From assembly GCA_002724925.1 (NCBI GenBank), contig PBQA01000016.1, forward strand, positions 248,001 to 312,000: DNA of 64,000 bases. Direction: 5' to 3'. This document shows, in pieces, positions 3,031 to 59,296 of this stretch. The position numbers and the translations under genes were made by a program. Source of the DNA: Oceanospirillaceae bacterium (GTDB lineage Bacteria; Pseudomonadota; Gammaproteobacteria; Pseudomonadales; Oceanobacteraceae). How positions within the stretch are numbered: the stretch's first letter is position 1; the number at the start of each line of letters is the position of its first letter. Under the pieces are notes generated by a model that worked only from the letters and a program-made list of their open reading frames with translations, ran no database searches and was not told the origin of the DNA.

Positions 3031-3147
3031 GTTATACGTTAGTTATACACAAGAGAATAAATTTGTACAACCGATAAAATACCGCCACAATACTCAGGTA
3101 CTTAACCCCACCGCACTTGTACAAGTAAGAAGCGTCCGGGTTATAAC
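3031..3147. promoter_or_regulatory. Divergent promoters with TGTACA/TATACA operators (predicted LitR sites)
   Basis: On the minus strand, TTGTAC (3070-3065), a 17-base spacer and TATAAC (3047-3042) form a good sigma-70 promoter for the acyl-CoA dehydrogenase. Its -35 is inside TGTACA 3064-3069, and its -10 overlaps TATACA 3044-3049, with TATACG just beyond at 3033-3038. On the plus strand, TTGTAC (3117-3122), inside the palindrome CTTGTACAAG, is followed 18-19 bases later by TTATAAC (3141-3147), serving the renalase-like gene. Class II LitR of Pseudomonas putida is known to bind direct repeats of this hexamer. Placement over core promoter elements suggests repression. Binding here is inferred. 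Confidence 0.65.
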
Positions 3148-4569: not shown

Positions 4570-4590
4570 CTTCATCGGCAAGCATTAAGT

Positions 4591-4686
4591 TATACAAAAA
4601 TGGGATTTCTTGTACAATTTTTATTGACTTGTACAAGATACCCGTCGCAGAATGAACTTATACAAATAACCCTCAGGAGTTGTACA
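4591..4686 (+). promoter_or_regulatory. Main photolyase-operon promoter with multiple TGTACA/TATACA operators
   Basis: Five hexamers lie within 96 bases: TATACA 4591, TGTACA 4611, TGTACA 4630, TATACA 4659 and TGTACA 4681. A candidate promoter is TTGACT (4624-4629), 18 bases, CAGAAT (4648-4653). The TGTACA at 4630 sits directly after the -35. The 4591/4611 pair has the same 20-base phase as the 3044/3064 pair. The last copy touches the start codon at 4686, after AGGAG at 4675-4679. Such density in an A/T-rich stretch is far above chance and fits cooperative MerR/LitR repression. The assignment of regulator is inferred. Confidence 0.7.
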
Positions 4687-5657
4687 TGGTTTATTCATCT
4701 GACAACAAAATCCCTGTAGGCATCAGTGCCTGTCTCACAGGCCAGGCCGTCCGGTTCAATGGCAGCCACAAGCGCTCCCGCTTCTGCACGGATGTCCTCA
4801 GCGACTATTTCAACCTACGCCCCATGTGCCCGGAAGTGGCCATTGGGATGGGCACCCCCCGTGAACCTATCCGCCTGGTCAGCGAATCCCCCTCGGATGA
4901 AAGCGTGCGCGCTGTAGGCGTCGATTCACCTGATATAGATGTAACAGATGATCTCAGGTCTGAGGCGGTCAAAGTCAGCGCTCTCAATCAGGATCTCTGT
5001 GGATTTATCTTTATGCAGAAAAGCCCCAGCTGTGGCGTTTTCGGTGTAAAGCGCTACCTCAAAAATGGTCACCCTGAAGGGAAAGCCTCAGGTATTTTCG
5101 CCAGTGAATTTGCGCGCCTGAACCCGCTCCTACCCATTGAAGAAGCCGGTCGGTTAAATGATGCAGCACTGCGAGAGAACTTTATGGTTCGGGTGTTTAC
5201 CTATCGCGATTGGCAGCTTTTTACTCAAACCACTGTGACACCGGCCCGCCTGATCGACTTTCACTCTCGCTACAAGTACCTGATCATGGCGCACAGCACC
5301 GTGCACTATAAAGAGACTGGGCGTCTGCTCAGCGATCTTTCAGGGGATATCAATGGTATTGCCAGCGAGTACTTCGCACTTCTTATGACAGCACTGGCCA
5401 AGCCTGCCAGCCGCAAGACACATACCAATACTCTGATGCACCTGCAGGGGTACCTTAAAAATTTAATCAGTCCCGCAGACAAAGAAGAGCTGGCGCGGAT
5501 TATTCTGGAATATCGTCGGGGCATTATTCCGCTCGTCGTTCCGCTGACCCTGCTTAAACACCACCTGAACCACCATCAGGAAGCGAATGCGTATGCACGA
5601 CAGCAGGTTTACCTGAACCCCCACCCATATGAGCTGGGGCTGAGGAATACGCTGTGA
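4686..5657 (+). CDS. DUF523-DUF1722 fusion protein
   Basis: This 323-residue protein has two domains. The N-terminal DUF523 part (about residues 5-150) carries conserved cysteines in GISACLTG, RSRFC, MCPE and KSPSCG that look metal- or cluster-binding. The C-terminal DUF1722 part (about 190-310) is homologous to E. coli YbgA, whose gene precedes the photolyase gene phrB. The biochemical function is not established. The ATG at 4686 is preferred over the TTG six bases upstream because AGGAG is then optimally spaced. It is the first gene of the photolyase operon, and its stop overlaps the GTG of the MerR gene (GTGA). Confidence 0.85.
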   Translation: MVYSSDNKIPVGISACLTGQAVRFNGSHKRSRFCTDVLSDYFNLRPMCPEVAIGMGTPREPIRLVSESPSDESVRAVGVDSPDIDVTDDLRSEAVKVSALNQDLCGFIFMQKSPSCGVFGVKRYLKNGHPEGKASGIFASEFARLNPLLPIEEAGRLNDAALRENFMVRVFTYRDWQLFTQTTVTPARLIDFHSRYKYLIMAHSTVHYKETGRLLSDLSGDINGIASEYFALLMTALAKPASRKTHTNTLMHLQGYLKNLISPADKEELARIILEYRRGIIPLVVPLTLLKHHLNHHQEANAYARQQVYLNPHPYELGLRNTL

Positions 5658-6511
5658 ATATGGCAGAGTGCGTCGGCTACCCGATACGAGAATTTGCGCG
5701 CCTGACCGGGGTGAACCCGGTCACGCTCAGAGCGTGGGAACGCCGCTACGGCATTATTCAACCATTGCGCACTGCCAAAGGGCATCGGTATTACACCGAC
5801 GAACACGTCACTCAAGTTAAGTCGATTCTGTACTGGCTGGATCAGGGCTACCCGATACGGCAAGTAAAGCTGCTATTGAATGAGCCACCTGCGAATCCAT
5901 CATCGCCTTCGGATGAATGGGAAGACCTCATAAGCCGCCAATTGGCCTCTGCGCGTGACCTGAACTCACGTGCCCTCGACGATGAATGGAGTAATGGTCT
6001 CGCCAGCTACCCCATGGCTGTTTATTACGAACGTTGCCTGTTGCCCGTTATTACGGAGCTACGCCAAGCCAGCAGCGACACTCTGATTCTGAACGCGTAT
6101 ACCCACTTACTGCAGCGCAAGCTCTCACAACTCATACAACTCCAGCAGAAGCATGCGGAAGGACCCGGTTTACTGATGTGTACCAATCACGAACAGGCTG
6201 AACTTCATCTTCTGGCAGCCTCTTACGCACTCGGAGCAGCCGGATTCCGACTGGAATACTTCGGAGTGCATCTGAATCCGGATGACGTTCGTATAGTGTC
6301 AGACATGCTGGATTTTTCCTGGGTCTGGGCACACGTTCACCCGACAGGTCATGACGAACAGGTGCTGTGGCAGAGTCTGTCGGAGAAATGCCGCATACCC
6401 GTTTACTTTTCGGGCGACATTCCCGATGACATTGATGAAGCACAGGCACTGCAACAACCCATGAGTAAGCAGATACAGACATTTATACAACACGCAGGAG
6501 GCCGCTCATGA
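5654..6511 (+). CDS. MerR-family regulator, class II LitR-like (B12-fold without B12 motif)
   Basis: The N-terminal MerR winged helix is clear (residues ~6-73, with VTLRAWERRYG and KGHRYYTDEHV). The C-terminal half has the shape of the helical plus Rossmann cobalamin-binding region of CarH/LitR. The AdoB12-binding signature expected of class I photoreceptors is not recognisable; NHEQAELHLLA occupies its place. This fits class II LitR, which in Pseudomonas senses light through a partner LOV protein. The GTG start overlaps the previous stop and has TGAGGAA upstream; an ATG six bases later is possible. It likely represses its own operon through the TGTACA sites at 4591-4686. Confidence 0.85.
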   Translation: MNMAECVGYPIREFARLTGVNPVTLRAWERRYGIIQPLRTAKGHRYYTDEHVTQVKSILYWLDQGYPIRQVKLLLNEPPANPSSPSDEWEDLISRQLASARDLNSRALDDEWSNGLASYPMAVYYERCLLPVITELRQASSDTLILNAYTHLLQRKLSQLIQLQQKHAEGPGLLMCTNHEQAELHLLAASYALGAAGFRLEYFGVHLNPDDVRIVSDMLDFSWVWAHVHPTGHDEQVLWQSLSEKCRIPVYFSGDIPDDIDEAQALQQPMSKQIQTFIQHAGGRS

Positions 6512-7929
6512 CACGCCTCATGTGGTTCAGAACTGACTTGCGGGTACTCGATAATCCGGCACTGATGCACAGCCGCCGGGATGATGAGGAGGCAACGCTG
6601 GCCATCTACTTCGTTACTGAAGCGCAATGGCAGCAGCATGACCTTGGTGAACGCAGAATCAATCTGATGAAGCAGGCCGCCTGCAACCTGCAGCAGTCAC
6701 TTGATGAGTTGGGCATACCCCTTCTCATTCTGAAGAAGGATACATTTACCGAAGCCAAAGAGGCTCTTCAGCACCTCATCGAGACCTATGATATCTCTGA
6801 GCTGAATTACAACCTCGAATACGAAGTCAACGAGCGTCATCGTGATATTGAGCTGTGCCAGTGGTCTAAGGACAACGCTATCCAGATCAATAAGTTTCAC
6901 GACCAGTGCATTGTCCCGCCGGGTGATCTGAAAACTCAGAATGGCGACCCTTACCGGGTCTACTCGCCCTTCCGTAAGGCGTGGTTACGTCTGCAGAAAG
7001 ACTACATCAACGCACCGTCTTCAGCCCCTGGGCAGCAGGATATGCACACTATCTCCCACGACATCCGCGACCACTGGGCAGATAACAGCTGGTCCCCCGA
7101 GTTCACCGAGGACGCCCTCTGGGACCCAAGTGAAGACACTGCTCACGAGCAGCTAAAAGAATTTCTGGATAAAGACGGTCTGCAGTACCACGAGCAGCGT
7201 GATCTTCCAGAGTTGGATGCGACGAGCCGGCTTTCATTTTATCTCGCACTGGGCGTGCTATCGCCACGCCAGTGTATTTACACCGCCTGGCAACGAAACG
7301 GATGTTTACTCAGTGGCGGAGAGAATGGCCTCGATAGTTGGATTAATGAACTCGTCTGGCGCGAATTCTACCGCCACCTGATTGTGGCCTATCCTGAACT
7401 ATGCAAGCACCGGGCATTCCGCTCGGATTATGAGAATGTGCCATGGCGCGACAGCGCCAGCGACTTCGAGCGTTGGTGCAAAGGAGAAACGGGCTACCCC
7501 ATCGTTGATGCAGCGATGAAGCAACTGGTAGACCAGGGCTGGATGCACAATCGATTGCGTATGGTGACGGCCATGTTCCTTACCAAACACCTGCTGATCG
7601 ACTGGCATAAGGGAGAGAAGTTTTTCAGCCAACACCTGGTGGATGCCGACCTTGCATCGAACAATGGGGGTTGGCAGTGGAGTGCGTCTACTGGAGCAGA
7701 CGGAGCGCCTTACTTCCGGATATTCAATCCGGTGACGCAATCTGAACGGTTTGATGAGCAAGGGCACTTTATTGCTCGTTACCTGCCAGAGCTGAACGGC
7801 CTGTCGCCGAAAGCCCGGCACTTTCCGGATGACAAGGCCCGAAAAGCCTGTGGTTATCCTGAGGCAATCGTAGATCATAAAGCGGCGCGGCAACGTGCGC
7901 TGGATACATTCAAAAGCATGGAGAACTGA
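6508..7929 (+). CDS. phrB: Deoxyribodipyrimidine photolyase (class I CPD)
   Basis: This 473-residue DNA photolyase uses blue light and FADH- to split cyclobutane pyrimidine dimers. The N-terminal antenna domain begins MTRLMWFRTDLRVLDNPAL. The C-terminal FAD domain shows NELVWREFYRHLIVAYP, WMHNRLRMVTAMFLTKHLL and NNGGWQWSASTGADGAPYF, the last carrying the conserved Trp/Asn-rich FAD and lesion-binding residues. The length equals E. coli PhrB. ATGA overlap with the upstream MerR gene indicates coupled translation. It is the clearest functional anchor for calling this operon light/UV-responsive. Confidence 0.96.
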   Translation: MTRLMWFRTDLRVLDNPALMHSRRDDEEATLAIYFVTEAQWQQHDLGERRINLMKQAACNLQQSLDELGIPLLILKKDTFTEAKEALQHLIETYDISELNYNLEYEVNERHRDIELCQWSKDNAIQINKFHDQCIVPPGDLKTQNGDPYRVYSPFRKAWLRLQKDYINAPSSAPGQQDMHTISHDIRDHWADNSWSPEFTEDALWDPSEDTAHEQLKEFLDKDGLQYHEQRDLPELDATSRLSFYLALGVLSPRQCIYTAWQRNGCLLSGGENGLDSWINELVWREFYRHLIVAYPELCKHRAFRSDYENVPWRDSASDFERWCKGETGYPIVDAAMKQLVDQGWMHNRLRMVTAMFLTKHLLIDWHKGEKFFSQHLVDADLASNNGGWQWSASTGADGAPYFRIFNPVTQSERFDEQGHFIARYLPELNGLSPKARHFPDDKARKACGYPEAIVDHKAARQRALDTFKSMEN

Positions 7930-7941
7930 GGCAAACGCCCA

Positions 7942-8907
7942 GTGAGAACAGGTATGACGAGCATTCGTAAAAAATCCTGGTTACTGAACATCGCCCGCTG
8001 GTTCGACTCTTACGCTGGCAATGAAGCAGAAATGACCAGTACTCAATTCAACTGGGTGCGGGTGATTCCGTTTCTGTTACTTCACCTGGCGTGCTTTGCA
8101 GCACTCTGGACGGGAGTGAGCACGGTCGCACTGGCAACCTGCCTCGGACTTTTCTGGCTGAGGATGTTTGCGATTACGGCGTTCTACCACCGTTACTTCG
8201 CGCATCGCAGCTACAAAACCAACCGTTTCTGGCAATTTATATTTGCTCTGTTGGGGAATATGTCAGCGCAGCGGGGGCCTCTCTGGTGGGCTGCTCATCA
8301 TCGTGCTCACCACCAGCACGCTGATACCGAACAGGATCTGCACTCACCCGTACAACGTGGCTTCTGGTGGAGCCACATGGGCTGGTTCACCTGCGATGCC
8401 AGTTTCAAAACTCAGCTGCACCGTATAAAAGACTTTGCACGCTTTCCGGAGCTTAAATTCCTGGATCGCTACGACAGCTTCGCCCCCCTACTGCTGATAC
8501 TCATTCTGTTTGTTGCAGGCGAAATCATGGCGGCTTTCGCACCGGGCCTGAATACCAATGGCGCTCAGATGGTGGTCTGGGGATTCGTTATTTCAACCGT
8601 CATTCTCTTTCACTCCACGGTGACTATTAATTCGCTCGGTCATATCTGGGGCTCGCGTCGTTTTAAAACGAAAGACGACAGCCGTAACAATGGTGTACTC
8701 GCATTGCTGACGCTCGGCGAGGGCTGGCACAACAACCACCACCGCTGGGCCGTGTCTGCGCGACAGGGGTTCTATTGGTGGGAGATCGATATTACCTACA
8801 TGATACTCAAAGCCATGAGCTGGGTCGGAATCGTACACAGTCTGAACCCTGTGCCTGCTCATGTTCTGAAGGAGGGGCGTAATGGACAACGCACGCACAA
8901 CGAGTGA
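7942..8907 (+). CDS. Membrane fatty-acid desaturase (delta-9 acyl-CoA desaturase type)
   Basis: This 321-residue di-iron membrane desaturase has three histidine boxes: HRYFAH (residues 83-88), HRAHH (120-124) and HNNHH near residue 255. Hydrophobic helices at about 40-75 and 95-110, and again around 165-215, flank them. It inserts a cis double bond into acyl chains using O2. GTG 7942 is given as start; ATG 7954 is an alternative, and neither has an ideal RBS. It follows phrB by 12 bases and overlaps the next gene by 26. Together with Cfa downstream it suggests light-triggered membrane-lipid remodelling. Confidence 0.88.
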   Translation: MRTGMTSIRKKSWLLNIARWFDSYAGNEAEMTSTQFNWVRVIPFLLLHLACFAALWTGVSTVALATCLGLFWLRMFAITAFYHRYFAHRSYKTNRFWQFIFALLGNMSAQRGPLWWAAHHRAHHQHADTEQDLHSPVQRGFWWSHMGWFTCDASFKTQLHRIKDFARFPELKFLDRYDSFAPLLLILILFVAGEIMAAFAPGLNTNGAQMVVWGFVISTVILFHSTVTINSLGHIWGSRRFKTKDDSRNNGVLALLTLGEGWHNNHHRWAVSARQGFYWWEIDITYMILKAMSWVGIVHSLNPVPAHVLKEGRNGQRTHNE

Positions 8908-9373
8908 TCCGGCGAATACAGAGCAGACAAATGACCCGAGAATAGGAGCCTTCTACAAGCTCTATCACACACTCAGCCCAGAAACAGCAGGCACTGAAAA
9001 ATTAAGACGCTGCCTGGAACAGGTATACCACCCGGATATCGCGTTCAGTGATCCTATGCACCGGATAACCGGCATGGATGCACTCGAGAAATATTTCGAG
9101 GGGCTGTACGAAAATATCACCTATATCGACTTCCAGTTTCACAACGCCTGGGTTGAATCGGATACCGGTTCTGTTCACTGGACCATGCGCTATCGCCATC
9201 CGCGATTAAAGGCCGGTAAGCACGACATTAAGGTGGACGGAGTCACTCTTCTGCGCTGGGAAAATAATCTGGTCGTTCAGCACCAGGACATCTTCGACGC
9301 AGGTAGCCTCCTCTACGAACACCTCCCAGTCATTGGCTGGCTTATTCACAAATTGAAGGAGCGAATGGCATGA
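8882..9373 (+). CDS. NTF2-like / SnoaL-fold protein
   Basis: This 163-residue protein has the cone-shaped NTF2/SnoaL fold pattern: an N-terminal helix, YHPDIAFSDPMHRITGMDAL (typical of the family), then beta strands with WVESDTGSVHWTMRYRHP. The family includes isomerases, cyclases and non-catalytic binding proteins, so no reaction can be assigned. Homologues are commonly found next to the SDR, FAD oxidoreductase, DUF1365 and Cfa genes in photo-oxidative stress operons. A strong GGAGGGG RBS precedes the ATG, which overlaps the desaturase end by 26 bases. Confidence 0.8.
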   Translation: MDNARTTSDPANTEQTNDPRIGAFYKLYHTLSPETAGTEKLRRCLEQVYHPDIAFSDPMHRITGMDALEKYFEGLYENITYIDFQFHNAWVESDTGSVHWTMRYRHPRLKAGKHDIKVDGVTLLRWENNLVVQHQDIFDAGSLLYEHLPVIGWLIHKLKERMA

Positions 9374-10167
9374 CTCAGGCCCTCCCACTCAGTGAGCAGA
9401 TTGTCTGGCTCACCGGAGCATCATCCGGGATCGGCGAAGCGCTGACGGACGAACTTGCACCGCGATGCAAAGCACTTTTCATCAGCGCCCGCTCAGAAGA
9501 GAAACTGCGTCCATTGGCCGAACGACACGCCAACGTGACTGTGATTACCGCAGACATTACTGATGAGAAAAGCCTCGGGGAAGCGGCCTCGGTCATTCAT
9601 CAAAAGTACGGGTATCTGGACACCTTGATTGCGAACGCGGGTACCTGCGAGTACGTCGACGTTACTGATTTTGATACGGCACTGTTTCGCCGGGTTTTTG
9701 AAACCAACGTGATGGGCCTGGTCAATACCACAGCGGCAGCTCTACCCTTGTTGCAGAAGAGTCAGCGCGGTTACCTGGTCGGGGTTGGCAGCAGTGTTTC
9801 AATGCTGGCGATGCCGCGGGCGCAGGCCTATGGCGCGAGCAAAGCGGCAGTGGCTCATTTTCTTGAGAGTATGAAAGCCGACCTCAAAAGCATGGATATC
9901 GACGTGTCTCTGGTGAGTCCCGGATTTGTGAAAACACCACTGACAGACGTAAATGACTTCCCGATGCCGATGCGCATCAGTGCTGCACGAGCGGCGGAAG
10001 AGATTGTTAAAGGCGTCGAGAAACGTCAATGGCATATTCATTTCCCCAAAGGCTTCACCCGTATTCTCTGGTTTATCGGGCAACTGCCTGCTTTCTTACG
10101 TCACCGGATTACCGCTCAGATGTCACGCACTGACGAAGCGCTGCAAAAACAGGAATCAGATTCATGA
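9370..10167 (+). CDS. Short-chain dehydrogenase/reductase
   Basis: This 265-residue classical SDR has the cofactor motif TGASSGIG (residues ~15-22), NAG at IANAGTC, the catalytic Ser in VGVGSSVSM and the YxxxK motif YGASK. A basic/hydrophobic C-terminal stretch could associate with the membrane. The substrate is unknown; a lipid or fatty aldehyde would fit the neighbours. ATGA overlaps on both sides (with the NTF2-like and FAD genes) tie it firmly into the operon. Confidence 0.88.
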   Translation: MTQALPLSEQIVWLTGASSGIGEALTDELAPRCKALFISARSEEKLRPLAERHANVTVITADITDEKSLGEAASVIHQKYGYLDTLIANAGTCEYVDVTDFDTALFRRVFETNVMGLVNTTAAALPLLQKSQRGYLVGVGSSVSMLAMPRAQAYGASKAAVAHFLESMKADLKSMDIDVSLVSPGFVKTPLTDVNDFPMPMRISAARAAEEIVKGVEKRQWHIHFPKGFTRILWFIGQLPAFLRHRITAQMSRTDEALQKQESDS

Positions 10168-11426
10168 AAAAACGCGTCGCGATTATTGGCTCAGGAGTCG
10201 CAGGACTTACCTGTGCGTGGCTATTGAGAGAAAAGTACGATGTCTCCCTCTTCGAGGCAAATGACTATGCCGGTGGCCACACGCAGACCACAGATGTTGA
10301 GGTGAACGGTACCACCTGGCCGGTAAATACAGGGTTTATCGTATACAACGACTGGACCTATCCGAATTTTATCCGCCTGATGGATTTACTCGGTGTAAAA
10401 AGTGAAGAGTCTGACATGAGCTTCAGCGTGAAGTGTGAACAGTCTGGTCTGGAGTACAACGGACACACACTGAATACACTCTTTGCGCAGCGCCGGAACA
10501 TATTCAAGCCTGCATTCTGGGGCATGATCCGCGACATCCTTAAGTTCAATAAGGAAACTCGCGAAGAACTGGCCAACGACAGTGTTGATCAGACTGAAAC
10601 CCTCGGCAGCTACCTTCAGCGAAAAGGATATGGCGAAGCCTTCAGAACAAAATACATCATTCCTATGGGAGCCGCGGTCTGGTCAGCCAGTGAAGAGATG
10701 ATGATGCAGTTTCCGGTCTATTTCTTCCTTCGCTTCTTTAACAATCATGGCATGCTCAGTGTTGATGAGCGCCCTCAATGGCGAGTCATTTCCAACGGTT
10801 CACGCAGCTACGTTGCACGAATACTCGAAGACCTGCCTCAGGATCAGGTGCATCTGAATACACCCATTGACGGGGTCAGTCGCTCCAAGGATGGTGTCAT
10901 CGTCAGCAGTCACCGGGGGCATGAGCACTTTGATGAAGTGATTTTTGCCTGCCACAGTGATCAGGCGCTGGGGATGTTGAAAGATGCGACCGACGACGAA
11001 AAAAATATCCTGGGTGCTATTCCTTACAAAATGAATGATGTGGTTCTGCACACCGATCACAAAATCCTGCCTCAGAGACGATTGGCGTGGGCGGCCTGGA
11101 ACTACCATATCGGTGAACAAAGTCAGGATTCAGTTGCGGTAACCTACTACATGAACCGCCTACAGAATTTCGACGATGCACCGGTCGATTTCTGCGTCAC
11201 CTTGAATAAAACCGAAGCCATTAATCCGGATAAAATTATCCGACAGTTCCGTTACGCGCATCCGGTATTCACTCTGGAGGGTATGGCTGCACAACAGAGA
11301 CACAGCGAAATTAGTGGTAAAAACCACTCTCATTTTTGTGGTGCCTATTGGTTTAATGGCTTCCACGAAGACGGTGTCCGCAGTGCTTTACGCGTCACTG
11401 AAGCCTTAGGGGTGCCCCTGCCATGA
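10164..11426 (+). CDS. FAD-dependent oxidoreductase (amine oxidase-like) of the Cfa cluster
   Basis: This 420-residue flavoprotein starts with a canonical dinucleotide-binding motif (VAIIGSGVAGLTCAWLL) and FEANDYAGGHTQT. The C-terminal FAD segment is FCGAYWFNGFHEDGVRSALR. It belongs to the NAD/FAD-binding protein group that is almost always encoded next to DUF1365 and cyclopropane-fatty-acid synthase. The group has been linked to membrane fatty-acid modification and is part of the ChrR/sigma-E singlet-oxygen regulon in other proteobacteria. The exact reaction is not established. ATGA junctions lie on both sides. Confidence 0.88.
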   Translation: MKKRVAIIGSGVAGLTCAWLLREKYDVSLFEANDYAGGHTQTTDVEVNGTTWPVNTGFIVYNDWTYPNFIRLMDLLGVKSEESDMSFSVKCEQSGLEYNGHTLNTLFAQRRNIFKPAFWGMIRDILKFNKETREELANDSVDQTETLGSYLQRKGYGEAFRTKYIIPMGAAVWSASEEMMMQFPVYFFLRFFNNHGMLSVDERPQWRVISNGSRSYVARILEDLPQDQVHLNTPIDGVSRSKDGVIVSSHRGHEHFDEVIFACHSDQALGMLKDATDDEKNILGAIPYKMNDVVLHTDHKILPQRRLAWAAWNYHIGEQSQDSVAVTYYMNRLQNFDDAPVDFCVTLNKTEAINPDKIIRQFRYAHPVFTLEGMAAQQRHSEISGKNHSHFCGAYWFNGFHEDGVRSALRVTEALGVPLP

Positions 11427-12085
11427 GTGCAACCCAGAGTGCAATATTCACAGGCACCGTTCGCCATCGTCGTTTTCATCCGGTTCAGCATGCACTGAGT
11501 TACAGCGCCTTTATGGTTTGGCTGAACCTGGACGAAGCCAATGATGTTCTGCGCCGCTCGGCACTCTGGGGGCAATCGATCTTTTCTCTCGCACGCTTTC
11601 GCCGAGAAGATTACTTTGCACTTGCAGGGCTACCGCTTTCTTCAACCGCGGAGAATCTTAAACTGCATGTCTGCGAAGCATTCCGCCGGGAAACGGGTTT
11701 AGTACCTGACCAGATCTGTATGATGACCAACCTGCGTTACTTCGGATATCTGATCAACCCGGTCACGTTCTATTACGCATACGATGCTGATGGCCAACAC
11801 CTCGGGATTCTCTCTGAGATCACCAACACACCGTGGGATGAAAAATTTCACTACACCCTTCTGAGTCGGCAAGCGACAGCGAATCAGGCCAGGCACACAG
11901 CTAACACCGACCATCAGCGCGGAATCACGCCAGAACATACTCAGCAGCATGCTGACGGACATCAACGCCACCGTTATCGCTTTAATAAAGTGTTTCATGT
12001 GTCGCCATTCAATCCGCTTGATATGACCTACATCTGGAGCATGCCAGAAGTAACAGATGAGTGCCTGATTCACATGCAACGATGA
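11423..12085 (+). CDS. DUF1365 protein, N-terminal part (split by frameshift)
   Basis: These 220 residues match the first three quarters of DUF1365: RHRRFHPVQHALSY at the N-terminus, NLRYFGYLINPVTFYY in the middle and KVFHVSPFNPLDMTYIW near the end. The frame then stops at TGA 12083-12085, while the conserved remainder continues in another frame from 12082. A His/Gln/Arg-rich insertion (residues ~147-187) is unusual for the family. One missing base near 12080 would explain the break. The TGA overlaps an ATG (ATGA), so reinitiation could produce the second part as a separate chain. DUF1365 is usually one ~250-residue protein of unknown function adjacent to Cfa. Confidence 0.8.
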   Translation: MSATQSAIFTGTVRHRRFHPVQHALSYSAFMVWLNLDEANDVLRRSALWGQSIFSLARFRREDYFALAGLPLSSTAENLKLHVCEAFRRETGLVPDQICMMTNLRYFGYLINPVTFYYAYDADGQHLGILSEITNTPWDEKFHYTLLSRQATANQARHTANTDHQRGITPEHTQQHADGHQRHRYRFNKVFHVSPFNPLDMTYIWSMPEVTDECLIHMQR

Positions 12086-12321
12086 ATAAAGGCAGGCTCG
12101 ACTTCGATGCGACCATGACCATGAATCGACATCCCATGACTTCGACGATGATGCGCAGAATTTTACTGCAGTACCCTCTGATGACGATGAAGGTTGTCTG
12201 GGGAATCTACAGCAATGCCTTACGCCTCTGGCTGAAGAAAAGCCCTTTTTATGATCATCCTGAAAATGATCCCGAGCAGGACCACAAAAAATCTATCGCC
12301 CCACGACAGGAGCACCTATGA
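12082..12321 (+). CDS. DUF1365 protein, C-terminal part (second frame)
   Basis: These 79 residues begin MNKGRLDFDATMTM and contain RRILLQYPLMTMKVVWGIY and ALRLWLKKSPFYDHP, the conserved C-terminal region of DUF1365 proteins. It is offset from the upstream part by one base. Either the family gene is broken here (or miscalled by one base), or it is truly encoded as two coupled polypeptides through the ATGA at 12082-12085. Its stop overlaps the cfa start, again as ATGA. Conservation of the C-terminal motif argues against long decay. Confidence 0.7.
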   Translation: MNKGRLDFDATMTMNRHPMTSTMMRRILLQYPLMTMKVVWGIYSNALRLWLKKSPFYDHPENDPEQDHKKSIAPRQEHL

Positions 12322-13568
12322 AAACACTGACAGTCACTGCCGAAAATATGCCTTGGATGGATCGGTTCTGCCGCAACGGCCTGATCGATACACTCGAAAA
12401 ACTTCACACAGGTTCTCTGGAAATTGTCGAGGGTGATAACACATTGCAGTTCGGCAAAGCCGGATCTGATATGCATTCACGTATTGAAATTCTGGACAGC
12501 GAGGCGTATCGAAGTATTGCCCTGAACGGCAGCGTAGGCGCTGGTGAATCCTACATGACAGGAGATTGGACCTGCTCTGATCTGCCTATGTTGATCAGAA
12601 TCCTGTCGCGAAATAAGGATGTCGTGGACCAGATAGACAGCGGCCTTGCAAACCTAGGCAAGTTCGCCCTGAAATGGCTTCATTCTCTGAACCGCAATAC
12701 AGAAAAAGGCTCACGACGTAATATCGCTGCACATTATGATCTGGGCAACGATATGTTCGAACTCTTCCTCGATCCCTCCATGATGTATTCCAGCGGTATA
12801 TTTCCGAGTGAAGATGCGACCATGGAAGAAGCATCTGTTTATAAGCTTGATCGTATTTGTAAGAAACTAGACCTGCAGCCGACTGATCACCTTGTTGAAA
12901 TAGGCACAGGCTGGGGAAGCATGGCCATCCACGCGGCCAAGCATTACGGTTGCAAGGTAACCACGACTACGATTTCTGAACAGCAGTACGCCTGGGCTGA
13001 AGAGAAGGTCAAAGCCGAAGGCCTTGAAGACAAGATCACCCTTCTCAAAAAAGATTATCGCGCGCTCGAAGGTGAATACGACAAGCTTGTCTCTATCGAA
13101 ATGATTGAAGCGGTTGGTTGGGAATATTTAGACACCTACACGGCAACAATCAGCCGCCTGCTGAAGCCAGAAGGTATCGCCCTGATACAAGCGATCACCA
13201 TTGAAGATCAACGGTACGAACAAGCTAAAAAAGACGTCGATTTTATTAAACGTTACATTTTTCCGGGCAGTTTTATTCCGTGCGTCACGGCCATCCAGAA
13301 TTCGTTTACCCAATGCACTGATATGAAAATGTCGCACATGGAAGATATTACCCCACATTACGCTCGTACTCTGGATGCATGGCGGAAGCGCTTTCTTGCA
13401 AATAAGAAAGACATCATGGAAAAAGGTTACGGCGAAGACTTCATCCGCCTATGGGATTTCTACTTCGCCTACTGCGAGGGTGGATTTGCTGAGCGGGTTA
13501 TTGGTGATGTTCACCTGATGTTCGCGAAACCACTGAATCGCAGTGAACCGGTGCTTGGTAATCTCTGA
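12318..13568 (+). CDS. cfa: Cyclopropane-fatty-acyl-phospholipid synthase
   Basis: This 416-residue SAM-dependent enzyme methylenates cis double bonds of membrane phospholipid acyl chains. The SAM-binding motif VEIGTGWGSMAIHAAKHYG is followed by TTTISEQQYAWA and SIEMIEAVGWEY; AHYDLGNDMFELFLD precedes them. Length and motifs are those of the proteobacterial CfaA/UfaM group found with DUF1365. Some group members may make other methylated fatty acids, so cyclopropanation is likely but not certain. CAGGAG is its RBS, and it overlaps the DUF1365 fragment (ATGA) and DUF2878 (TGATG). Confidence 0.92.
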   Translation: MKTLTVTAENMPWMDRFCRNGLIDTLEKLHTGSLEIVEGDNTLQFGKAGSDMHSRIEILDSEAYRSIALNGSVGAGESYMTGDWTCSDLPMLIRILSRNKDVVDQIDSGLANLGKFALKWLHSLNRNTEKGSRRNIAAHYDLGNDMFELFLDPSMMYSSGIFPSEDATMEEASVYKLDRICKKLDLQPTDHLVEIGTGWGSMAIHAAKHYGCKVTTTTISEQQYAWAEEKVKAEGLEDKITLLKKDYRALEGEYDKLVSIEMIEAVGWEYLDTYTATISRLLKPEGIALIQAITIEDQRYEQAKKDVDFIKRYIFPGSFIPCVTAIQNSFTQCTDMKMSHMEDITPHYARTLDAWRKRFLANKKDIMEKGYGEDFIRLWDFYFAYCEGGFAERVIGDVHLMFAKPLNRSEPVLGNL

Positions 13569-14092
13569 TGTCTGCAACGCAGCTGAAGGTTATTAATGCG
13601 GTTGCATTCCAGCTTTGCTGGTTTGCCTGCGTGCTAGGAGGAAGCTTGTGGGCCCTCCCCGCTGTTCTGGCATTTATGATCTGGCACCGAAAAGTCGCAA
13701 CAAAAGAAGAATGGCTGTTTATATCGGTACTCAGTCTCAGCGGGATTGCGCTAGACACACTCTGGTATCAGCTTGGCGTGTTCAGCTTCGATAACTACAC
13801 CATGCCGGTGATCCCGGCCTGGCTCGCACTCTTATGGCTCGCCTTTTCAGCAACGCTGTTACATTCATTACATACGATATTTTCAAGGGCCTGGCTGATC
13901 GTTCCTCTGGCTGCTATCTCTGCGCCGGTCAGTTACTACGCTGGTCAGAAATTCGGAGCCCTTACCTTAGGCCCGGATGCCCTATGGATTATTTCAGCGT
14001 CGTGGGGAGGGCTGATGCTGGCCGCATACTTCGCTCACTCATCCAATATCATTCCTACATTTTCATCGCCTACAGAGAGAGAAAAGCCGTGA
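13568..14092 (+). CDS. DUF2878 integral membrane protein
   Basis: This 174-residue protein has about five hydrophobic segments (for example VINAVAFQLCWFACVLGG and PVIPAWLALLWLAFSATLL). It matches DUF2878, a family regularly encoded immediately after cfa in photo-oxidative-stress clusters. The function is unknown; an inner-membrane partner of the lipid-modifying enzymes is a guess. The ATG shares its first base with the cfa stop, and the TGA overlaps the GTG start of the next gene. Confidence 0.78.
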   Translation: MSATQLKVINAVAFQLCWFACVLGGSLWALPAVLAFMIWHRKVATKEEWLFISVLSLSGIALDTLWYQLGVFSFDNYTMPVIPAWLALLWLAFSATLLHSLHTIFSRAWLIVPLAAISAPVSYYAGQKFGALTLGPDALWIISASWGGLMLAAYFAHSSNIIPTFSSPTEREKP

Positions 14093-14787
14093 TTAAGTAT
14101 TTTACGACTGTCTTACTCATTCTTGTATCAAGCACGCTCATTGCCGAAGAATCGGTTCTTTCATATCGTGGAGATGCCTTTAGCATGGAGGGCGGCGAAC
14201 TCTTGTATACCGAGTATCATCGTTTAACACTTAAGGACGGCAAGCCCCTCACTCGCGAGACTCGCTACCAGACATCGGATACCGAAGAATTCGCAAAAAA
14301 GCAGAATCAGTACAGTGATAACACGGCCACGCCTGATTTTAATCTCACTGACACACGTTATGGTTATTCTGAGGAGGTTACCTATGACGATGGTAAGTGG
14401 CGTGTCAGCTACAGCGAACCTGAGGAATCGGACAAAGGAACGCTAGGAAAACCGGACTACACGCCGGTGATTGATGCAGGCTTTGATGAGTTCGTGCGTT
14501 CTGTCTGGCCGAAGCTGCTAGATGAAGAAACCGTCCGGTTTTCATTTGCTGTGCCTTCGCGGCTGGAGTGGGTGAACTTTCGCCTGATTCCTCTGGAACG
14601 GGAGGATGGAAAGCTGACCGTCGAAATGCGTTTAAGCTCACGACTTCTGTCCTGGCTTCTTGACCCGGTTAAGCTGACCTACGACGAAGAAACTCAGCGA
14701 CTACTGACCTATCGGGGCCTTACGAATATCAGAAATAAGGACGGCGAAGGCATCAAGGCTGAAATCCGATACACTTACCCGGATTAA
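14089..14787 (+). CDS. Exported protein of unknown function in the photolyase operon
   Basis: This 232-residue protein starts at GTG 14089 (GTGA overlap). It has a signal peptide (VIKYFTTVLLILVSSTLIAE) and a beta-rich, acidic remainder (LSYRGDAFSMEGGELLYTEYHR, with many Thr/Glu/Tyr). No family is recognised. A much longer in-frame extension back to 13834 would overlap DUF2878 and hide the signal peptide, so it is not used. Its position between the lipid genes and a TonB-dependent receptor suggests a periplasmic or outer-membrane-associated role. Confidence 0.75.
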   Translation: MIKYFTTVLLILVSSTLIAEESVLSYRGDAFSMEGGELLYTEYHRLTLKDGKPLTRETRYQTSDTEEFAKKQNQYSDNTATPDFNLTDTRYGYSEEVTYDDGKWRVSYSEPEESDKGTLGKPDYTPVIDAGFDEFVRSVWPKLLDEETVRFSFAVPSRLEWVNFRLIPLEREDGKLTVEMRLSSRLLSWLLDPVKLTYDEETQRLLTYRGLTNIRNKDGEGIKAEIRYTYPD

Positions 14788-14810
14788 ACGACGATTTAAA
14801 GGAAAGTAAG

Positions 14811-16835
14811 ATGCGTCCGTTTGCAGTTGTGCTGATCACTGTTCTCAGCTCTCAGGCCGTACAGCTTCATGCAGAAGTCACGTTGGATAAAGTGACGACA
14901 ACCGGAGAAGAAGTCGAGTCTCCCCGCCCCACGACAGAAAAGCTGCTGAAAATTCCGGGCGCAGGCAATGATCCATTGCGAGCATTGGAAGCGCTTCCCG
15001 GAGTCGTCTTTGGCAATGGTCGTGAAGCCGCCCCCGCGGTGCGTGGCTCATCACCCGATGATAATGCCTACTACCTCGATTTTCTGCCCGTGGGCTATCT
15101 GTTTCATAACGATGGCTCCAGTATTATCAACGATGCATTGGTTGACGGTTTTGAGCTTTACCCTGCGGCCTTCGGCCCGGAGTTTAACAACGCCACGGGG
15201 GCTGTTATCACAGCCGACTCTCGCTCACCTTATTTTGATGATCAACAAACCATCGTTGACCTCAGTTTATTGCGTGCTGGGGTTTTGTTTGATGTTCCGG
15301 TCAACGAATCTAACGCCGCCTTCCTGAGTGCCCGCATGAGCCTGTTTCAGTATTACCTCGAAAATCTGGTCGACGACGAAGATTTTCAGTTTACTACCGT
15401 GCCTGAGTTCTACGATTATCAGGGGGCGTGGGAATACCGTCCGGACTCAGTCTCTGCGCTGCGCTTTCAGGCCATTGGCGCCAGAGATAAAGCGGGCTTT
15501 GATTTCCCTGAAGACTCCGACTTTGTACAACAAGACCCTGCACTCAGTGGTGGGCTCGAAGCAGAGCAGTATTTTAATAGTCAGGGGATTGTTTATGAGC
15601 GCTTCTTTTCTTCAGGCCTGAGTATGAAAACCGGCGTATCTCAGCTCGAAGAAAGCTTCGAGTTCAGCATCGGTCAGGGTAATTTCATCGACGCTAAGAG
15701 CAATCGCTACGGCGTGCGCTCACAATTCATTTACCCTATGTCGTTATCGCACGAGTTGCAATTTGGCGCTGAGTATTCCGAGCAGAACATCAACTACAAA
15801 GGTCGTTTTTCTGCACCTCCCTGTGATGAATTTTCAAGCGATTGTCGTCTCGTTACCGCAACTGAAGAGCTGACAGGTTCAGGAAATTTTGCAATTCGCG
15901 AATTCAACGCCAATCTGGCGGATCAATGGGACGTACTCCCGGGGTGGCAGGTGACACCGGGAGTACTTGCTTCCTATAACGAATTTACCGAAAACAGCTA
16001 CCTTGAACCCCGACTGAACAGTCGCGTCCGTGTGGCACTGCCTTTGACCTGGACACTCGGATTTGGTGAATATCACGCATTGTCGGGTAACCCTGGCCAA
16101 TACACGCCTGAGTTCGGAAACCCCGAGATCAATGAGACACGCTCGACTCACTACGAGACAGGACTTGAATATCAACTGAAAGACGGTCTGAACCTGACCT
16201 CTGAACTTTACTACAAAGACATCACAGATATTGTTGTGTCACGAGTACCGCAAAATAATTATCCGGGATTAACCACTGAGGAATACAACGCGCTTCCACG
16301 TTATACCAACGACGGTAGCGGGCAATCGTGGGGAATTGAAACGCTTCTGAATGCCGACTACAGCGACCGATGGTATGGCTGGGTATCACTGACCCTTTCC
16401 CGTACGGAGAGAAGTAATGATATTACCGGTGAAAACTTCCGCTATTCCTACGACAAGCCCATCGTAATAAACGCAGTAGGAAATTATCGATGGAATGACC
16501 GCTGGACCTTCGGACTTAAATGGCGCTACGAAAGCGGACAACTGGTGACGCCGCTGGATGGCGTTGAAGAAGACACTGAGACGCCCGGCCTGTTCAATCC
16601 GATCTACGGCGATCCATTTTCTGAGCGGCTTCCGGCCTACCACCGCCTGGACTTCAGAGCGGACCGCGCCTATCAGTTCAGTCGCTGGAGTATGGACCTC
16701 TATTTTGAGGTGATTAACCTCTATGCCCGGGAAAATGTCGTTGGTTACCGTTACCTCAATGCCGATTACAGTGAGCGAGAAGACGTTAATGACCTGCCTC
16801 CAATTGCTTCGTTTGGAGTCCGCATGGTCTTCTGA
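14811..16835 (+). CDS. TonB-dependent receptor
   Basis: This 674-residue outer-membrane beta-barrel receptor has a signal peptide (MRPFAVVLITVLSSQAVQLHA) and a plug domain with LRALEALPGVVFGNG and PAVRGSSPDDNAYYLDFLPVGY. A series of beta strands ends in an aromatic-terminated strand (ASFGVRMVF), the usual outer-membrane insertion signal. The ligand is unknown. It starts 23 bases after the preceding exported-protein gene with an AAAGGAAAG RBS, so it is probably the last gene of the ~12-kb operon. A receptor in this light-type cluster is atypical. Confidence 0.85.
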   Translation: MRPFAVVLITVLSSQAVQLHAEVTLDKVTTTGEEVESPRPTTEKLLKIPGAGNDPLRALEALPGVVFGNGREAAPAVRGSSPDDNAYYLDFLPVGYLFHNDGSSIINDALVDGFELYPAAFGPEFNNATGAVITADSRSPYFDDQQTIVDLSLLRAGVLFDVPVNESNAAFLSARMSLFQYYLENLVDDEDFQFTTVPEFYDYQGAWEYRPDSVSALRFQAIGARDKAGFDFPEDSDFVQQDPALSGGLEAEQYFNSQGIVYERFFSSGLSMKTGVSQLEESFEFSIGQGNFIDAKSNRYGVRSQFIYPMSLSHELQFGAEYSEQNINYKGRFSAPPCDEFSSDCRLVTATEELTGSGNFAIREFNANLADQWDVLPGWQVTPGVLASYNEFTENSYLEPRLNSRVRVALPLTWTLGFGEYHALSGNPGQYTPEFGNPEINETRSTHYETGLEYQLKDGLNLTSELYYKDITDIVVSRVPQNNYPGLTTEEYNALPRYTNDGSGQSWGIETLLNADYSDRWYGWVSLTLSRTERSNDITGENFRYSYDKPIVINAVGNYRWNDRWTFGLKWRYESGQLVTPLDGVEEDTETPGLFNPIYGDPFSERLPAYHRLDFRADRAYQFSRWSMDLYFEVINLYARENVVGYRYLNADYSEREDVNDLPPIASFGVRMVF

Positions 16836-56744: not shown

Positions 56745-57209
56745 TCAGTCTTTACCTGCTTTCAACGCGGCAAGTTCTTCCTCCGCCGCCCTGGCGCGCG
56801 CTTCGGCTTCGATCTGAGCCGTCACATCCTTCTGAATCCCGATGTAGTACGTCAACTGATCCTGATCGTTACGCACCGGAGACAGGCTCAGTTCATTCCA
56901 GAACATGGTGCCATCTTTATGATAATTACGCAGAACTACCCGAGTGCTACGGCCTTCTTTGATAGCCGCACGTACTTCCTGCAGGCCTTCCTGTTCACGG
57001 TCACCGGTTTGCAGAAAACGACAGTCCTGGTAAAGAATCTCATCAGCGGTATAGCCGGTCAGGCGTTCAAACGCCTTGTTCACGTATATCAGGATGTTAT
57101 CGTCACCTTCCTGCTCGGCAATCACGATACCGTCATTCGAGGCATCAACTGCCTTCTTAAGAAGTTCAAGATTGATAGGGCCCTGCTCATCATTCAGGTC
57201 TGTGACCAT
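56745..57209 (-). CDS. Short LOV blue-light photoreceptor protein
   Basis: This 154-residue protein consists of one LOV/PAS domain plus short helical extensions. The photoactive Cys63 lies in YQDCRFLQTGDR. The flavin-contacting Asn95 (LRNYHKDG), Asn105 (FWNELSLSPV) and Gln126 (YIGIQKDV) are all present, at the same relative spacing as in Pseudomonas putida SB1-LOV. The N-terminal helix (LELLKKAVDASNDGI) and the C-terminal helix (AEARARAAEEELAAL) are dimer-forming elements there. It has no effector domain, so it must act on a partner, most likely the divergent LitR-like regulator. Blue light should form the Cys-FMN adduct. Confidence 0.93.
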   Translation of the reverse strand: MVTDLNDEQGPINLELLKKAVDASNDGIVIAEQEGDDNILIYVNKAFERLTGYTADEILYQDCRFLQTGDREQEGLQEVRAAIKEGRSTRVVLRNYHKDGTMFWNELSLSPVRNDQDQLTYYIGIQKDVTAQIEAEARARAAEEELAALKAGKD

Positions 57210-57314
57210 CGATCGTCTCCGCTGTTACTCTCTGTCGCCTGATCTCTGACTGTGATCAGAGTCGCTTTTTATATCATTCAGATCAAGACTGAGCGTATCA
57301 GCCTTTTGGTTTCT

Positions 57315-57360
57315 TTTACATTATGTACAACTACTTATAGAATTTGGACTGCTTTGTATA
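57315..57360 (+). promoter_or_regulatory. litR-rsmC promoter with TGTACA in the spacer
   Basis: TTTACA (57315-57320), a 17-base spacer and TAGAAT (57338-57343) form the promoter. TGTACA sits in the spacer (57324-57329), and TGTATA follows at 57355-57360. This is the same type of operator placement as at 3.1 and 4.6 kb, suggesting autoregulation by LitR. The shared 171-base region also serves the divergent LOV gene. Confidence 0.6.
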
Positions 57361-57380
57361 GTTCTGGAAATAAATTCGTC

Positions 57381-58292
57381 ATGTCCGCCCCCTCTGAATC
57401 TCAGGCTGCCTACTATCCGATACGGGTAGTCTCGAACGAAACCGGTGTTAACGCGATTACCCTGCGTGCATGGGAGCGACGTTACGGCCTCATCACCCCC
57501 AAACGCACCGCCAAAGGTCATCGTCTGTACACCGAGGCAGACATACAACTTATACGCAAAGTTGTATCACTTTTGCAGCGCGGCATTCCGATCTCACAAG
57601 CCAAAGCCATGCTGGAAAATGGCGAGTCAGAGCCGGATATCAGTGTGCAGACCAGCCAACCGTCGCAGTGGTCGCAGTACCGGGCTCGGTTGACCAGCGC
57701 GATCCGTGATTTCGACGATGCAGAAATTGCCCGAGTCATGGATGAGGTCACGGGCTTTTTTCCTGTCGATATTGCCCTGCGTTTCCTGTTACTGCCTCTG
57801 CACCAGCAATTGCGGGAGCAGATTACTGAACCACTGGGGTCAGCACGGCTGCAATTCTTTGCCGGGTTCCTGCAAGGGCGCCTGAGCATGCGCCTGAGCG
57901 AATCATCAGAACATTCTATGAACGTCACGCTGGTACTCGCAAACACGGTTTATAGTGACGATCTCGAGCTACTTCTCCTCGGCATACTACTGAAGCAGTT
58001 CGGTATTCGGGTTATCCGTCTTGCAGGCTTATCAACGCCTCAGGAAATTTCAGAATTAATCCGCACTCAGAATCTTCAGGGCGCCGTTGTGGGAGTTGCC
58101 GACACCCCAGAGTCGGGCCAGTTACAGAGTTTAAGAAACCTCGCTGCCGAGACCGGCCAACTCATCTTTTGCAGCGGACAGAATGTTGCTCAAGCGAGTG
58201 CACTGCGGGAGCGCGGTCTGGTTGCACTGAACCGGGACCCACAACAAGATGCCCTCACCGTCAGAGATGTACTTACCGGCGTTAACGAATGA
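57381..58292 (+). CDS. MerR-family regulator, class II LitR-like, partner of LOV protein
   Basis: This 303-residue regulator starts at ATG 57381 (MSAPSESQAAYYPIR); a longer in-frame start at 57252 would swallow the promoter. The MerR domain (residues ~12-80) has NAITLRAWERRYGLITPKRTA and KGHRLYTEADI, close to that of the first LitR. The C-terminal region keeps the helical plus Rossmann layout of cobalamin-binding LitR/CarH but lacks the B12 motif (DxHxxG not found). It is divergent from the short LOV gene and overlaps rsmC by ATGA. It is probably a repressor relieved by the light-state LOV protein, as described for P. putida. Confidence 0.87.
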   Translation: MSAPSESQAAYYPIRVVSNETGVNAITLRAWERRYGLITPKRTAKGHRLYTEADIQLIRKVVSLLQRGIPISQAKAMLENGESEPDISVQTSQPSQWSQYRARLTSAIRDFDDAEIARVMDEVTGFFPVDIALRFLLLPLHQQLREQITEPLGSARLQFFAGFLQGRLSMRLSESSEHSMNVTLVLANTVYSDDLELLLLGILLKQFGIRVIRLAGLSTPQEISELIRTQNLQGAVVGVADTPESGQLQSLRNLAAETGQLIFCSGQNVAQASALRERGLVALNRDPQQDALTVRDVLTGVNE

Positions 58293-59296
58293 GCAACGTA
58301 TACGAATTACTCCAGCGTCATCCGATGCTGCTGACCGCCAATACCACGATCATTGGCTCCGAAGCACACCTGCCCGCCGGGTGGGCTGAGCATGCAGCAG
58401 AACACAAGGTTCAGGTAATCACTGCCGACTGGCTGACAGCTCAGGCTTACCAGGCCGACAAAGAGACGCCACTCGTGCAATTCGGTGTTCCCGATGTCGC
58501 AGGGCTCGCAGGCCGCCTTGTGATCGTACTATGGCCAAAGGCCAAGGCCGCAGGTCAGGCCCTCGTGAGCATGCTGAGCCAACAGGTTGATAACTGTTAT
58601 GTCGTCGCCGCCAATGACGCTGGTGGCAAAAGTATCGGTAATGCCCTGAAAGACTTCGCCAGCGAAAGTACTAAAATGGACAGCGCCCGACACTGTTCGC
58701 TGTGGAACATTCGACTCAACAAATCAGAAGGTACGGCCAACTGGCTGCGCTTTGCCAGCTCTTTTCAGGCAGGCGAACTGAGCTTTATGACGCTGCCAGG
58801 CGTCTTTGGCCACGGCAAACTCGATAAAGGCACCGCCTTGTTACTGGAACATGTGCCTGCACCGGCCCACGGCAAACTGCTCGATCTGGGCTGCGGCTCC
58901 GGCGTCATTGGATTAACCATGAAGTCCCGTAGCCCTGCTCTCGACATCACTCTGACCGACGTTGATGCCATGGCACTAAGAAGCGCAGAGCTGAACTCTG
59001 CCCGCCTCGGGCTCAGCGCAGAGACAATAGCCAGTGATGGTTTGGCGCGTGTTGATGGCCGTTTCGATTACATCTTCAGTAATCCGCCCTTCCATCAGGG
59101 CAAGCGCACCGATTATGAGTTCGCCTTAAGACTTTTCCGTGACGCCAAACGACACATGACCCGCGACGGCCAGTTGTGGATTGTTGCTAACCGTCACCTC
59201 GCTTACGAAGAGTGGGCCAGCGAAGCGTTCAGAAGCGCTGAGGTCATGGTTCAGAGCAACGGCTTCAAACTGATCTGCGCTTCAGACCCCAAATAA
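58289..59296 (+). CDS. rsmC: 16S rRNA m2G1207 methyltransferase
   Basis: This 335-residue two-domain methyltransferase has an N-terminal inactive domain (residues ~1-165) and a C-terminal catalytic domain with GKLLDLGCGSGVIGLTM and NPPFHQG (the NPPF motif for N-methylation). It modifies G1207 of 16S rRNA. Its ATGA overlap with the litR gene means it is translated from the same mRNA, which is unexpected for a ribosome-maturation gene. Confidence 0.9.
   Translation: MSNVYELLQRHPMLLTANTTIIGSEAHLPAGWAEHAAEHKVQVITADWLTAQAYQADKETPLVQFGVPDVAGLAGRLVIVLWPKAKAAGQALVSMLSQQVDNCYVVAANDAGGKSIGNALKDFASESTKMDSARHCSLWNIRLNKSEGTANWLRFASSFQAGELSFMTLPGVFGHGKLDKGTALLLEHVPAPAHGKLLDLGCGSGVIGLTMKSRSPALDITLTDVDAMALRSAELNSARLGLSAETIASDGLARVDGRFDYIFSNPPFHQGKRTDYEFALRLFRDAKRHMTRDGQLWIVANRHLAYEEWASEAFRSAEVMVQSNGFKLICASDPK

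Follow-up and report, generated by a model that had tools for sequence, protein, structure and literature searches.

A probable blue-light switch pairing a short LOV protein with a LitR regulator that lacks the B12 motif in a Thalassolituus-like bacterium

The 64,000-nucleotide stretch analysed here (the window) very probably encodes a PmSB-LOV/PmlR2-type anti-repressor switch operated by blue light, with a photolyase cluster, folE and a photolyase-related/cryptochrome operon as its predicted targets. The switch would consist of a short LOV protein (window 56745–57209, minus strand) and LitR2, a divergently encoded MerR-type regulator (window 57381–58292, plus strand). The host of this pair is Thalassolituus-like: the closest named loci by LOV identity belong to an Oleibacter marinus MAG (99%) and to Thalassolituus maritimus DSM 24913 (97%). 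Its genome spans 3.97 Mb in 38 contigs. Statements below on Pseudomonas mendocina NBRC 14162 and Pseudomonas putida KT2440 follow the accessible part of PMC9758184, the latter species being described there at second hand.

The short LOV protein and its divergent partner

The LOV protein has 154 residues and was characterized by Pfam searches, alignment to solved structures and a residue check. A script found the adduct cysteine Cys63 together with Asn95, Asn105 and Gln126 at the four positions where the sequence-only reading had placed them. Pfam returned only PAS matches, with PAS_9 at E = 7.3e-23, and an effector domain is absent from the 154 residues. The best matches among solved structures are 7r5n (4e-60), 7a6p (1.7e-56) and 3sw1 (3e-53), whose chains are named sensory box proteins; we take 7a6p to be PpSB2-LOV and 3sw1 to be PpSB1-LOV. 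Alignment with the solved short LOV chains is gap-free, the YQDCRFLQ stretch included, and the helices on both sides of the PAS core, N-cap and J-alpha, align as well. A single-sequence model contains the same helices, but its mean pLDDT of 65 indicates low confidence and we gave it no weight. The window protein has the defining set of Pseudomonas-type short LOV proteins: an adduct cysteine, the flavin-contacting Asn/Asn/Gln, N-cap and J-alpha helices and no effector. In PpSB1-LOV, mutation of R61 or R66 speeds up dark recovery, according to the accessible part of PMC5314338. R61 is conserved in the window protein as R71, whereas Leu76 stands in place of R66, so that the recovery time of the window protein is not safely predictable.

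LOV was detected in 28 of 44 family genomes (E ≤ 1e-45) and LitR2 in the same 28 (E ≤ 2.4e-81). By their coordinates, the two genes are divergent neighbours in all 28, which rules out chance adjacency. One of the LOV matches (G043) contains an in-frame TGA. The 16 genomes without the pair comprise nine from one genus, six from another and the 80%-complete G033; since the pair-less genomes belong mostly to two genera, the co-occurrence reflects a small number of independent events. A wider survey covered 80 of 432 LOV loci in genome contigs, with limited flanks. LitR lies divergently within 600 bp at 25 of these 80 loci (19 of the 25 at least 46% identical to LitR2) and elsewhere in the examined flank at another 38, while 17 have none there, several of them on short contigs.

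These 17 loci could be taken to mean that LOV and LitR2 are neighbours that do not interact and that LOV has another partner. One genome of the family, G012, points the same way, having a LitR-like gene with half-sites nearby and lacking LOV. Against this stand the 28 divergent pairs in 28 genomes and the half-sites in front of folE and of the photolyase-related gene, which, among the best 30 loci of each search, were not seen in LOV-negative genomes except for the incomplete G033. We therefore consider such an uncoupled arrangement highly unlikely.

Several further observations were made on these loci. Close LOV homologues with no LitR in the examined flank occur in Thioalkalivibrio, Ectothiorhodospiraceae/Aquisalimonas and Halomonas, some of them on short contigs. 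Loci of this type are L043, L044, L054, L058, L062, L064, L065, L081, L090, L094 and L099. A Pfam scan of ten LOV neighbours in loci of other groups revealed no recurrent effector. The LitR-like MerR protein of G012 (L145, 9147–10016, minus strand) has no Pfam B12 domain, and its gene adjoins two half-sites as well as genes of the RudS, SDR and FAD types; it is possibly a LitR operating without LOV.

The genome encodes a second regulator of this type, LitR1. A LitR1-type gene is present in 27 of the 44 genomes, namely 26 of the 28 LOV-bearing ones and G012; none was found at E ≤ 1e-10 in the LOV-bearing G019 and G029. LitR1 and LitR2 share a contig in 19 genomes, our own included, at distances of 31–59 kb in 16 and of more than 2 Mb in 3; closeness of the two loci is common, not required. 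A midpoint-rooted tree of 94 LitR rows, which came with a long-branch warning and held no class I, III, IV or V rows, separates Thalassolituus-type LitR2 (20 rows), LitR1 (26 rows, without that of G012) and the Pseudomonas LOV-linked LitRs (43 rows) as supported groups. The branching order among the three is weak, and this 94-row tree does not resolve LitR2 as an orthologue of the Pseudomonas LOV-linked LitRs. C-terminal profile comparison placed LitR2 closer to the latter (203 columns, E = 1.9e-19) than to LitR1 (186 columns, E = 6.6e-15). LitR2 seems to correspond to PmlR2, with no claim of strict orthology.

The gap between LOV and LitR2 measures 171 bp. It contains an element (57314–57361, no strand assigned) composed of TTTTAC, a half-site ATGTACAA at 57323, TTATAGAA at 57335 and a half-site TTGTATAG at 57354, which is likely to comprise the promoters and an autoregulatory operator. 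In the window and its nearest relatives the two half-sites are 31 bp apart with TTCTATAAG between them. Among 19 relatives, the gap holds TTCTATAAG (on the other strand) in 14, GTAAAA in 18 and at least one half-site in all 19, with the 31-bp step in 5; the same step also precedes the photolyase-related gene of our genome. The half-sites make autoregulation of LOV and LitR2 through the gap plausible, if speculative. By contrast, pmlR2 and pmSB-LOV of P. mendocina are nearly constitutive (PMC9758184).

LitR2 and its CarH-like C-terminus

LitR2 (303 residues) was analysed with Pfam, AlphaFold2 and Foldseek. Of the two starts considered for it, the ATG at 57381, where relatives align, stands; the GTG at 57252 is a mechanical ORF start only. 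The MerR HTH domain is recognized by Pfam (PF13411, E = 5.6e-18), and the C-terminus gave no match to a Pfam B12 domain, B12-binding_2 included, at thresholds up to E = 10. The AlphaFold2 model, built from an alignment of 19 sequences (mean pLDDT 83, pTM 0.68), comprises the HTH, four helices (residues 96–173) and a Rossmann-like part (182–299), and CarH chains rank first among its Foldseek matches. The isolated cobalamin-binding domain 8c36_B matches over 202 columns (TM 0.81 on the target, rmsd 2.9 Å). Full-length CarH 5c8e_G fits less well (E = 3.1e-13, TM about 0.55–0.6, rmsd 11.7) because the domains are arranged differently. A four-helix, B12-binding_2-like middle part is not detected by Pfam, but the four modelled helices and the CarH domain match may represent one. 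A two-domain methyltransferase gene (MTS and MTS_N; window 58289–59296, plus strand), whose product is presumably RsmC-like, overlaps the LitR2 stop by 4 bases and may therefore be co-transcribed with LitR2.

We take the cobalamin contacts of CarH, in numbering and roles, to be W131, H132, E141, H142 and H177. In a profile alignment, LitR2 has I148, T149, L157, Q158 and D193 at these positions, and the CarH residue occurs at none of the five in any of the 19 aligned LitR2 sequences. By contact residues LitR2 thus falls outside class I LitR/CarH (0 of 19 sequences match), and its MerR HTH and missing B12-binding motif are those of class II. The description of LitR2 as a divergent MerR regulator with a CarH-like C-terminus devoid of the cobalamin signature, first given from the sequence alone, is borne out by the Foldseek matches, the Pfam result and the substituted contact positions. 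LitR2 has the MerR HTH and the predicted whole C-terminal fold in common with CarH, the class I LitR of Thermus thermophilus (5c8d–f), but differs from it in that the five contacts are replaced and a separate LOV protein would sense light.

The complete CarH-like fold predicted for LitR2 could in principle hold a corrinoid or another cofactor, so that LitR2 would sense light itself and LOV would act as a modifier only. We regard this as very improbable given the loss of all five contact residues in 19 of 19 sequences. The Rossmann part is also the least conserved: mean identity to the window protein over 16 relatives, with the three nearest omitted, is 86% for residues 10–80 in the HTH, 54% for residues 96–175 and 37% for residues 180–303. 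The light response of P. putida, moreover, does not require B12 according to PMC9758184, while the accessible part of PMC11417400 calls class II LitR regulators adenosyl-B12-dependent; the residues of LitR2 favour the former account. In our genome the single B12-binding_2 match is a 1288-aa frame on a different contig, and hence no CarH-like B12 photoreceptor with B12-binding_2 was seen there.

For an apparently ligand-free C-terminus, this pattern of fold and conservation fits retention for oligomerisation, the role that the authors of the PmlR2 study assumed for the C-terminus of their protein (PMC9758184). Class II LitRs are said in the same source to keep only the four-helix bundle, whereas the predicted CarH-like fold of LitR2 is complete. 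Compared with the PmlR2 system, LitR2 also stands out in having no Pfam B12-binding_2 match.

Half-site arrays and predicted targets

The predicted target genes in the window all lie on the plus strand. They begin with a FAD-dependent amine-oxidase-like protein (3189–4178; Pfam) and a RudS-like protein (4686–5657; Pfam), which combines a 2-thiouracil desulfurase domain with DUF1722 and whose gene is predicted to head the main target operon. LitR1 (5654–6511; identified by Pfam, tree and profiles) and a PhrB-like DNA photolyase (6508–7929) follow. The predicted light-controlled cluster continues over 7942–16835, its right-hand end being uncertain, with genes for a fatty acid desaturase, a SnoaL-like protein, an SDR, a FAD oxidoreductase, DUF1365, a CFA-synthase-like (UfaM-like) protein, DUF2878, a product that we take to be DUF3833-like and an outer-membrane receptor. 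RudS genes are assigned to light-responsive operons in PMC11417400. In another genome of the family (G020, L154) the cluster runs CbiX, RudS, LitR1, PhrB and then receptor and LysR genes; most lipid genes of the window cluster are unmatched there, and the half-sites upstream of RudS are kept.

Two arrays of TRTACA half-sites precede these genes. Three half-sites (3043–3124, no strand assigned; TTATACA at 3043, TTGTACAA at 3063 and 3117) lie upstream of the FAD-oxidoreductase gene. Five more (4590, 4610, 4629, 4658 and 4680; 4590–4687, no strand assigned) are arranged around a TTGACT box, which stands before the third of them, and form a predicted LitR operator array upstream of RudS that reaches its start. 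In P. mendocina, two 18-bp pairs occupy comparable places, the first covering the -35 box and the second lying downstream of the transcription start but ahead of the start codon (PMC9758184). The window contains TTGTACA 13 times (5.4 expected), a count reached in 2 of 100 shuffles. At least three half-sites within 110 bp are found only at 3044–3118 and 4591–4681, and under uniform placement any such cluster arose in 0.15% of 2000 trials.

Across our genome, TTGTACA-N8-24-TTRTACA has 3 matches (reversed control 1) and TTATACA-N8-24-TTGTACA has 3 (reversed control 0), and all six fall at window 3043–3069 and 4590–4686; as the N8-24 range was picked after the sites had been seen, these matches are support and no independent test. 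Over the 44 family genomes the tandem pattern matched 51 times and its reversed control 38 times, and the 28 genomes that match are not the 28 with LOV. We discarded it as a genome-wide regulon predictor because it is too noisy, so that only position near genes carries weight. The published N12 operator was likewise dropped as a sole criterion: in the window it stays at chance level (5 matches with at most 2 mismatches, 4.0 expected), though it did find folE genome-wide.

The test by position used 15-kb stretches from 26 relatives with a LitR1-type gene, from which G012, lacking LOV and differing in layout, was omitted. In the window and the 25 remaining relatives, the regions upstream of RudS and the FAD gene, 14,025 bp in total, contain 165 half-sites, compared with 42 in the other 376,001 bp; the density of TRTACA half-sites is thus about 105 times higher upstream of photolyase cluster genes than in the rest of the same loci. 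The window and all 25 LOV-bearing relatives examined have arrays ahead of the cluster, with at least two half-sites upstream of RudS in each of the 26 rows. The complete five-site form, with steps near 20-19-29-22/23, appears in 7 of the 26, and the rest miss at least one site under the strict motif. Half-site steps are mostly 19–23, 29 and 31 bp, compared with 18 bp in the P. mendocina cluster promoter (PMC9758184). At the predicted targets, half-sites are conserved. By analogy with P. mendocina, the T(G/A)TACA half-sites are predicted to be LitR operators relieved by lit LOV.

The claim that the LOV/LitR2 switch governs the region at 3–17 kb is well supported: the genes are those of the light-induced pmlR1 region of P. 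mendocina, with its photolyase, SDR, FAD oxidoreductase and UfaM (PMC9758184), and the arrays recur in 25 of 25 relatives. The right-hand limit of 17 kb is uncertain. Within the window, no half-site array was found before the outer-membrane receptor gene (14811) or the LysR gene (16942). The distance from the pair, put at about 40 kb in the sequence-only reading, is about 52 kb when taken from the operators at 3.0–4.7 kb.

Since LitR1 is encoded in the target cluster, LitR2 may not be the sole repressor there. LitR1 might even be the main repressor of the photolyase cluster, with LOV acting on LitR1 or on both regulators and LitR2 serving mainly its own gap, folE or other distant genes. Besides the location of its gene, the co-occurrence of LitR1 and LitR2 in 26 of 28 LOV-bearing genomes and their MerR domains of one kind speak for such a division of labour. 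In P. mendocina, however, the pmlR1 promoter is bound and repressed by PmlR2, the LOV-linked regulator (PMC9758184), and G019 and G029, where LitR1 was not found (E ≤ 1e-10), nevertheless have half-sites before folE and photolyase-related genes. We hold this alternative to be possible but the less probable one, action of LOV on LitR1 being speculative, and retain LitR2 as the principal partner of LOV.

Outside the window, the published PplR1 consensus has 3 exact places in our genome and 21 with at most 1 mismatch (reversed control 10). One of the exact places lies directly before folE, which encodes GTP cyclohydrolase I. The exact N12 sites at L012 (about 1501, near the start of an ORF with no Pfam match, porin-like by eye) and at L013 (inside a TetR frame as called) gained no further support and were set aside; the former may be chance.

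For folE and the photolyase-related gene we counted half-sites, loosened to [CT]TRTACA or TGTAYA[AG], at most 160 bp from the start in the best 30 loci of each search; these counts omit folE from four genomes (G021, G024, G025, G032) and the photolyase-related gene from three (G004, G006, G009). Among these best 30 loci, one or more half-sites precede folE in 27 of 27 LOV-bearing loci (at least two in 25) and in 0 of 3 without LOV; the stretches counted (4,482 bp) hold 52 half-sites and the rest of these loci (91,326 bp) 27. The best 30 loci of the photolyase-related gene have at least one in 24 of 24 LOV-bearing loci (at least two in 18) and in 1 of 6 without LOV, the exception being the incomplete G033; here the stretches counted (3,984 bp) hold 51 half-sites and the rest (104,171 bp) 7. 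Several of these promoters show 11-bp steps. The LOV-negative copies are more distant (77–78% identical for folE; 41–48% for the photolyase-related gene, 68% in G033) and are therefore a weak control. No match to the photolyase-related gene was found in the LOV-bearing G014, G015, G020 and G036.

In our genome this gene heads a cryptochrome/photolyase operon to the left of the window (G000:C10:236559). The locus (L172, 3560–8184, G000:C10) holds three photolyase-related/cryptochrome-like genes in tandem, and half-sites 31 bp apart precede the first. The operon is a probable further target of the switch. Judged by these operators, the regulon probably extends beyond the window to both folE and the photolyase-related/cryptochrome operon; in P. 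mendocina, folE, cryB and the phrB cluster are light-induced (PMC9758184).

Proposed switch and comparison with Pseudomonas

In P. mendocina, LOV in its lit state binds PmlR2 at the HTH half and strips it from DNA, restoring transcription in vitro, and this requires Cys53; a bacterial two-hybrid assay of LOV and PmlR2 was positive in light and dark alike (PMC9758184). The need of class II LitR proteins for a short LOV partner, cited in the sequence-only reading, has thereby been given a biochemical proof. Because the window has these components too, it is best explained by this mechanism, with photocycle, LOV–LitR binding, repression and light induction taken over from P. mendocina. In the dark, LitR2, probably together with its paralogue LitR1, would sit on the TRTACA arrays over the target promoters and block transcription. 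The promoters bound would be those of the FAD-oxidoreductase gene, the RudS–LitR1–photolyase–lipid cluster, folE and the photolyase-related/cryptochrome operon, and probably also the gap shared with LOV. Blue light would generate a Cys63–flavin adduct; lit LOV would bind LitR2, probably through its HTH half, and remove it from DNA, turning on the photoprotective genes. Decay of the adduct in the dark would reset the switch.

With P. mendocina the window shares a short LOV with its adduct cysteine encoded near a LitR that lacks the B12 motif, a separate RudS/photolyase/SDR/FAD/UfaM-type cluster with its own LitR, TRTACA half-sites and folE in the regulon (PMC9758184). The layout differs: LOV and LitR2 are adjacent and divergent, whereas the P. 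mendocina cluster includes a further gene, PME15565 (PMC9758184). P. putida KT2440, with PpSB1/PpSB2-LOV and PplR1–3, shares the LOV type, class II LitR and a similar regulon, but has two LOV proteins and three LitRs against one close LOV match and two LitRs here (via PMC9758184). The mechanism is known from Pseudomonas; new are the lineage, the changed layout, the operator spacing and the complete but apparently ligand-free B12 fold. Among the openly licensed papers listed, we met no description of this LOV/LitR pair in Thalassolituus, which does not prove its absence.

More tentatively, the Thalassolituus family might hold a separate LitR lineage with a self-regulated divergent LOV/LitR pair, in which a single LOV relieves two B12-free repressors, LitR1 and LitR2, that share arrays with steps of 11–31 bp, while the complete but ligand-free CarH fold would survive purely as a scaffold for oligomerisation; we would put this full version forward as a possibility short of an expectation.

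The analysis extends a light-signalling mechanism recently proven in Pseudomonas to a marine bacterial family. It also outlines a compact regulon readable from sequence operators, with predicted roles for photolyase, the photolyase-related/cryptochrome operon, folE, tRNA desulfidase and lipid modification. Finally, it suggests that the fold of a B12 photoreceptor may be kept whole as a scaffold while a separate flavoprotein senses light.
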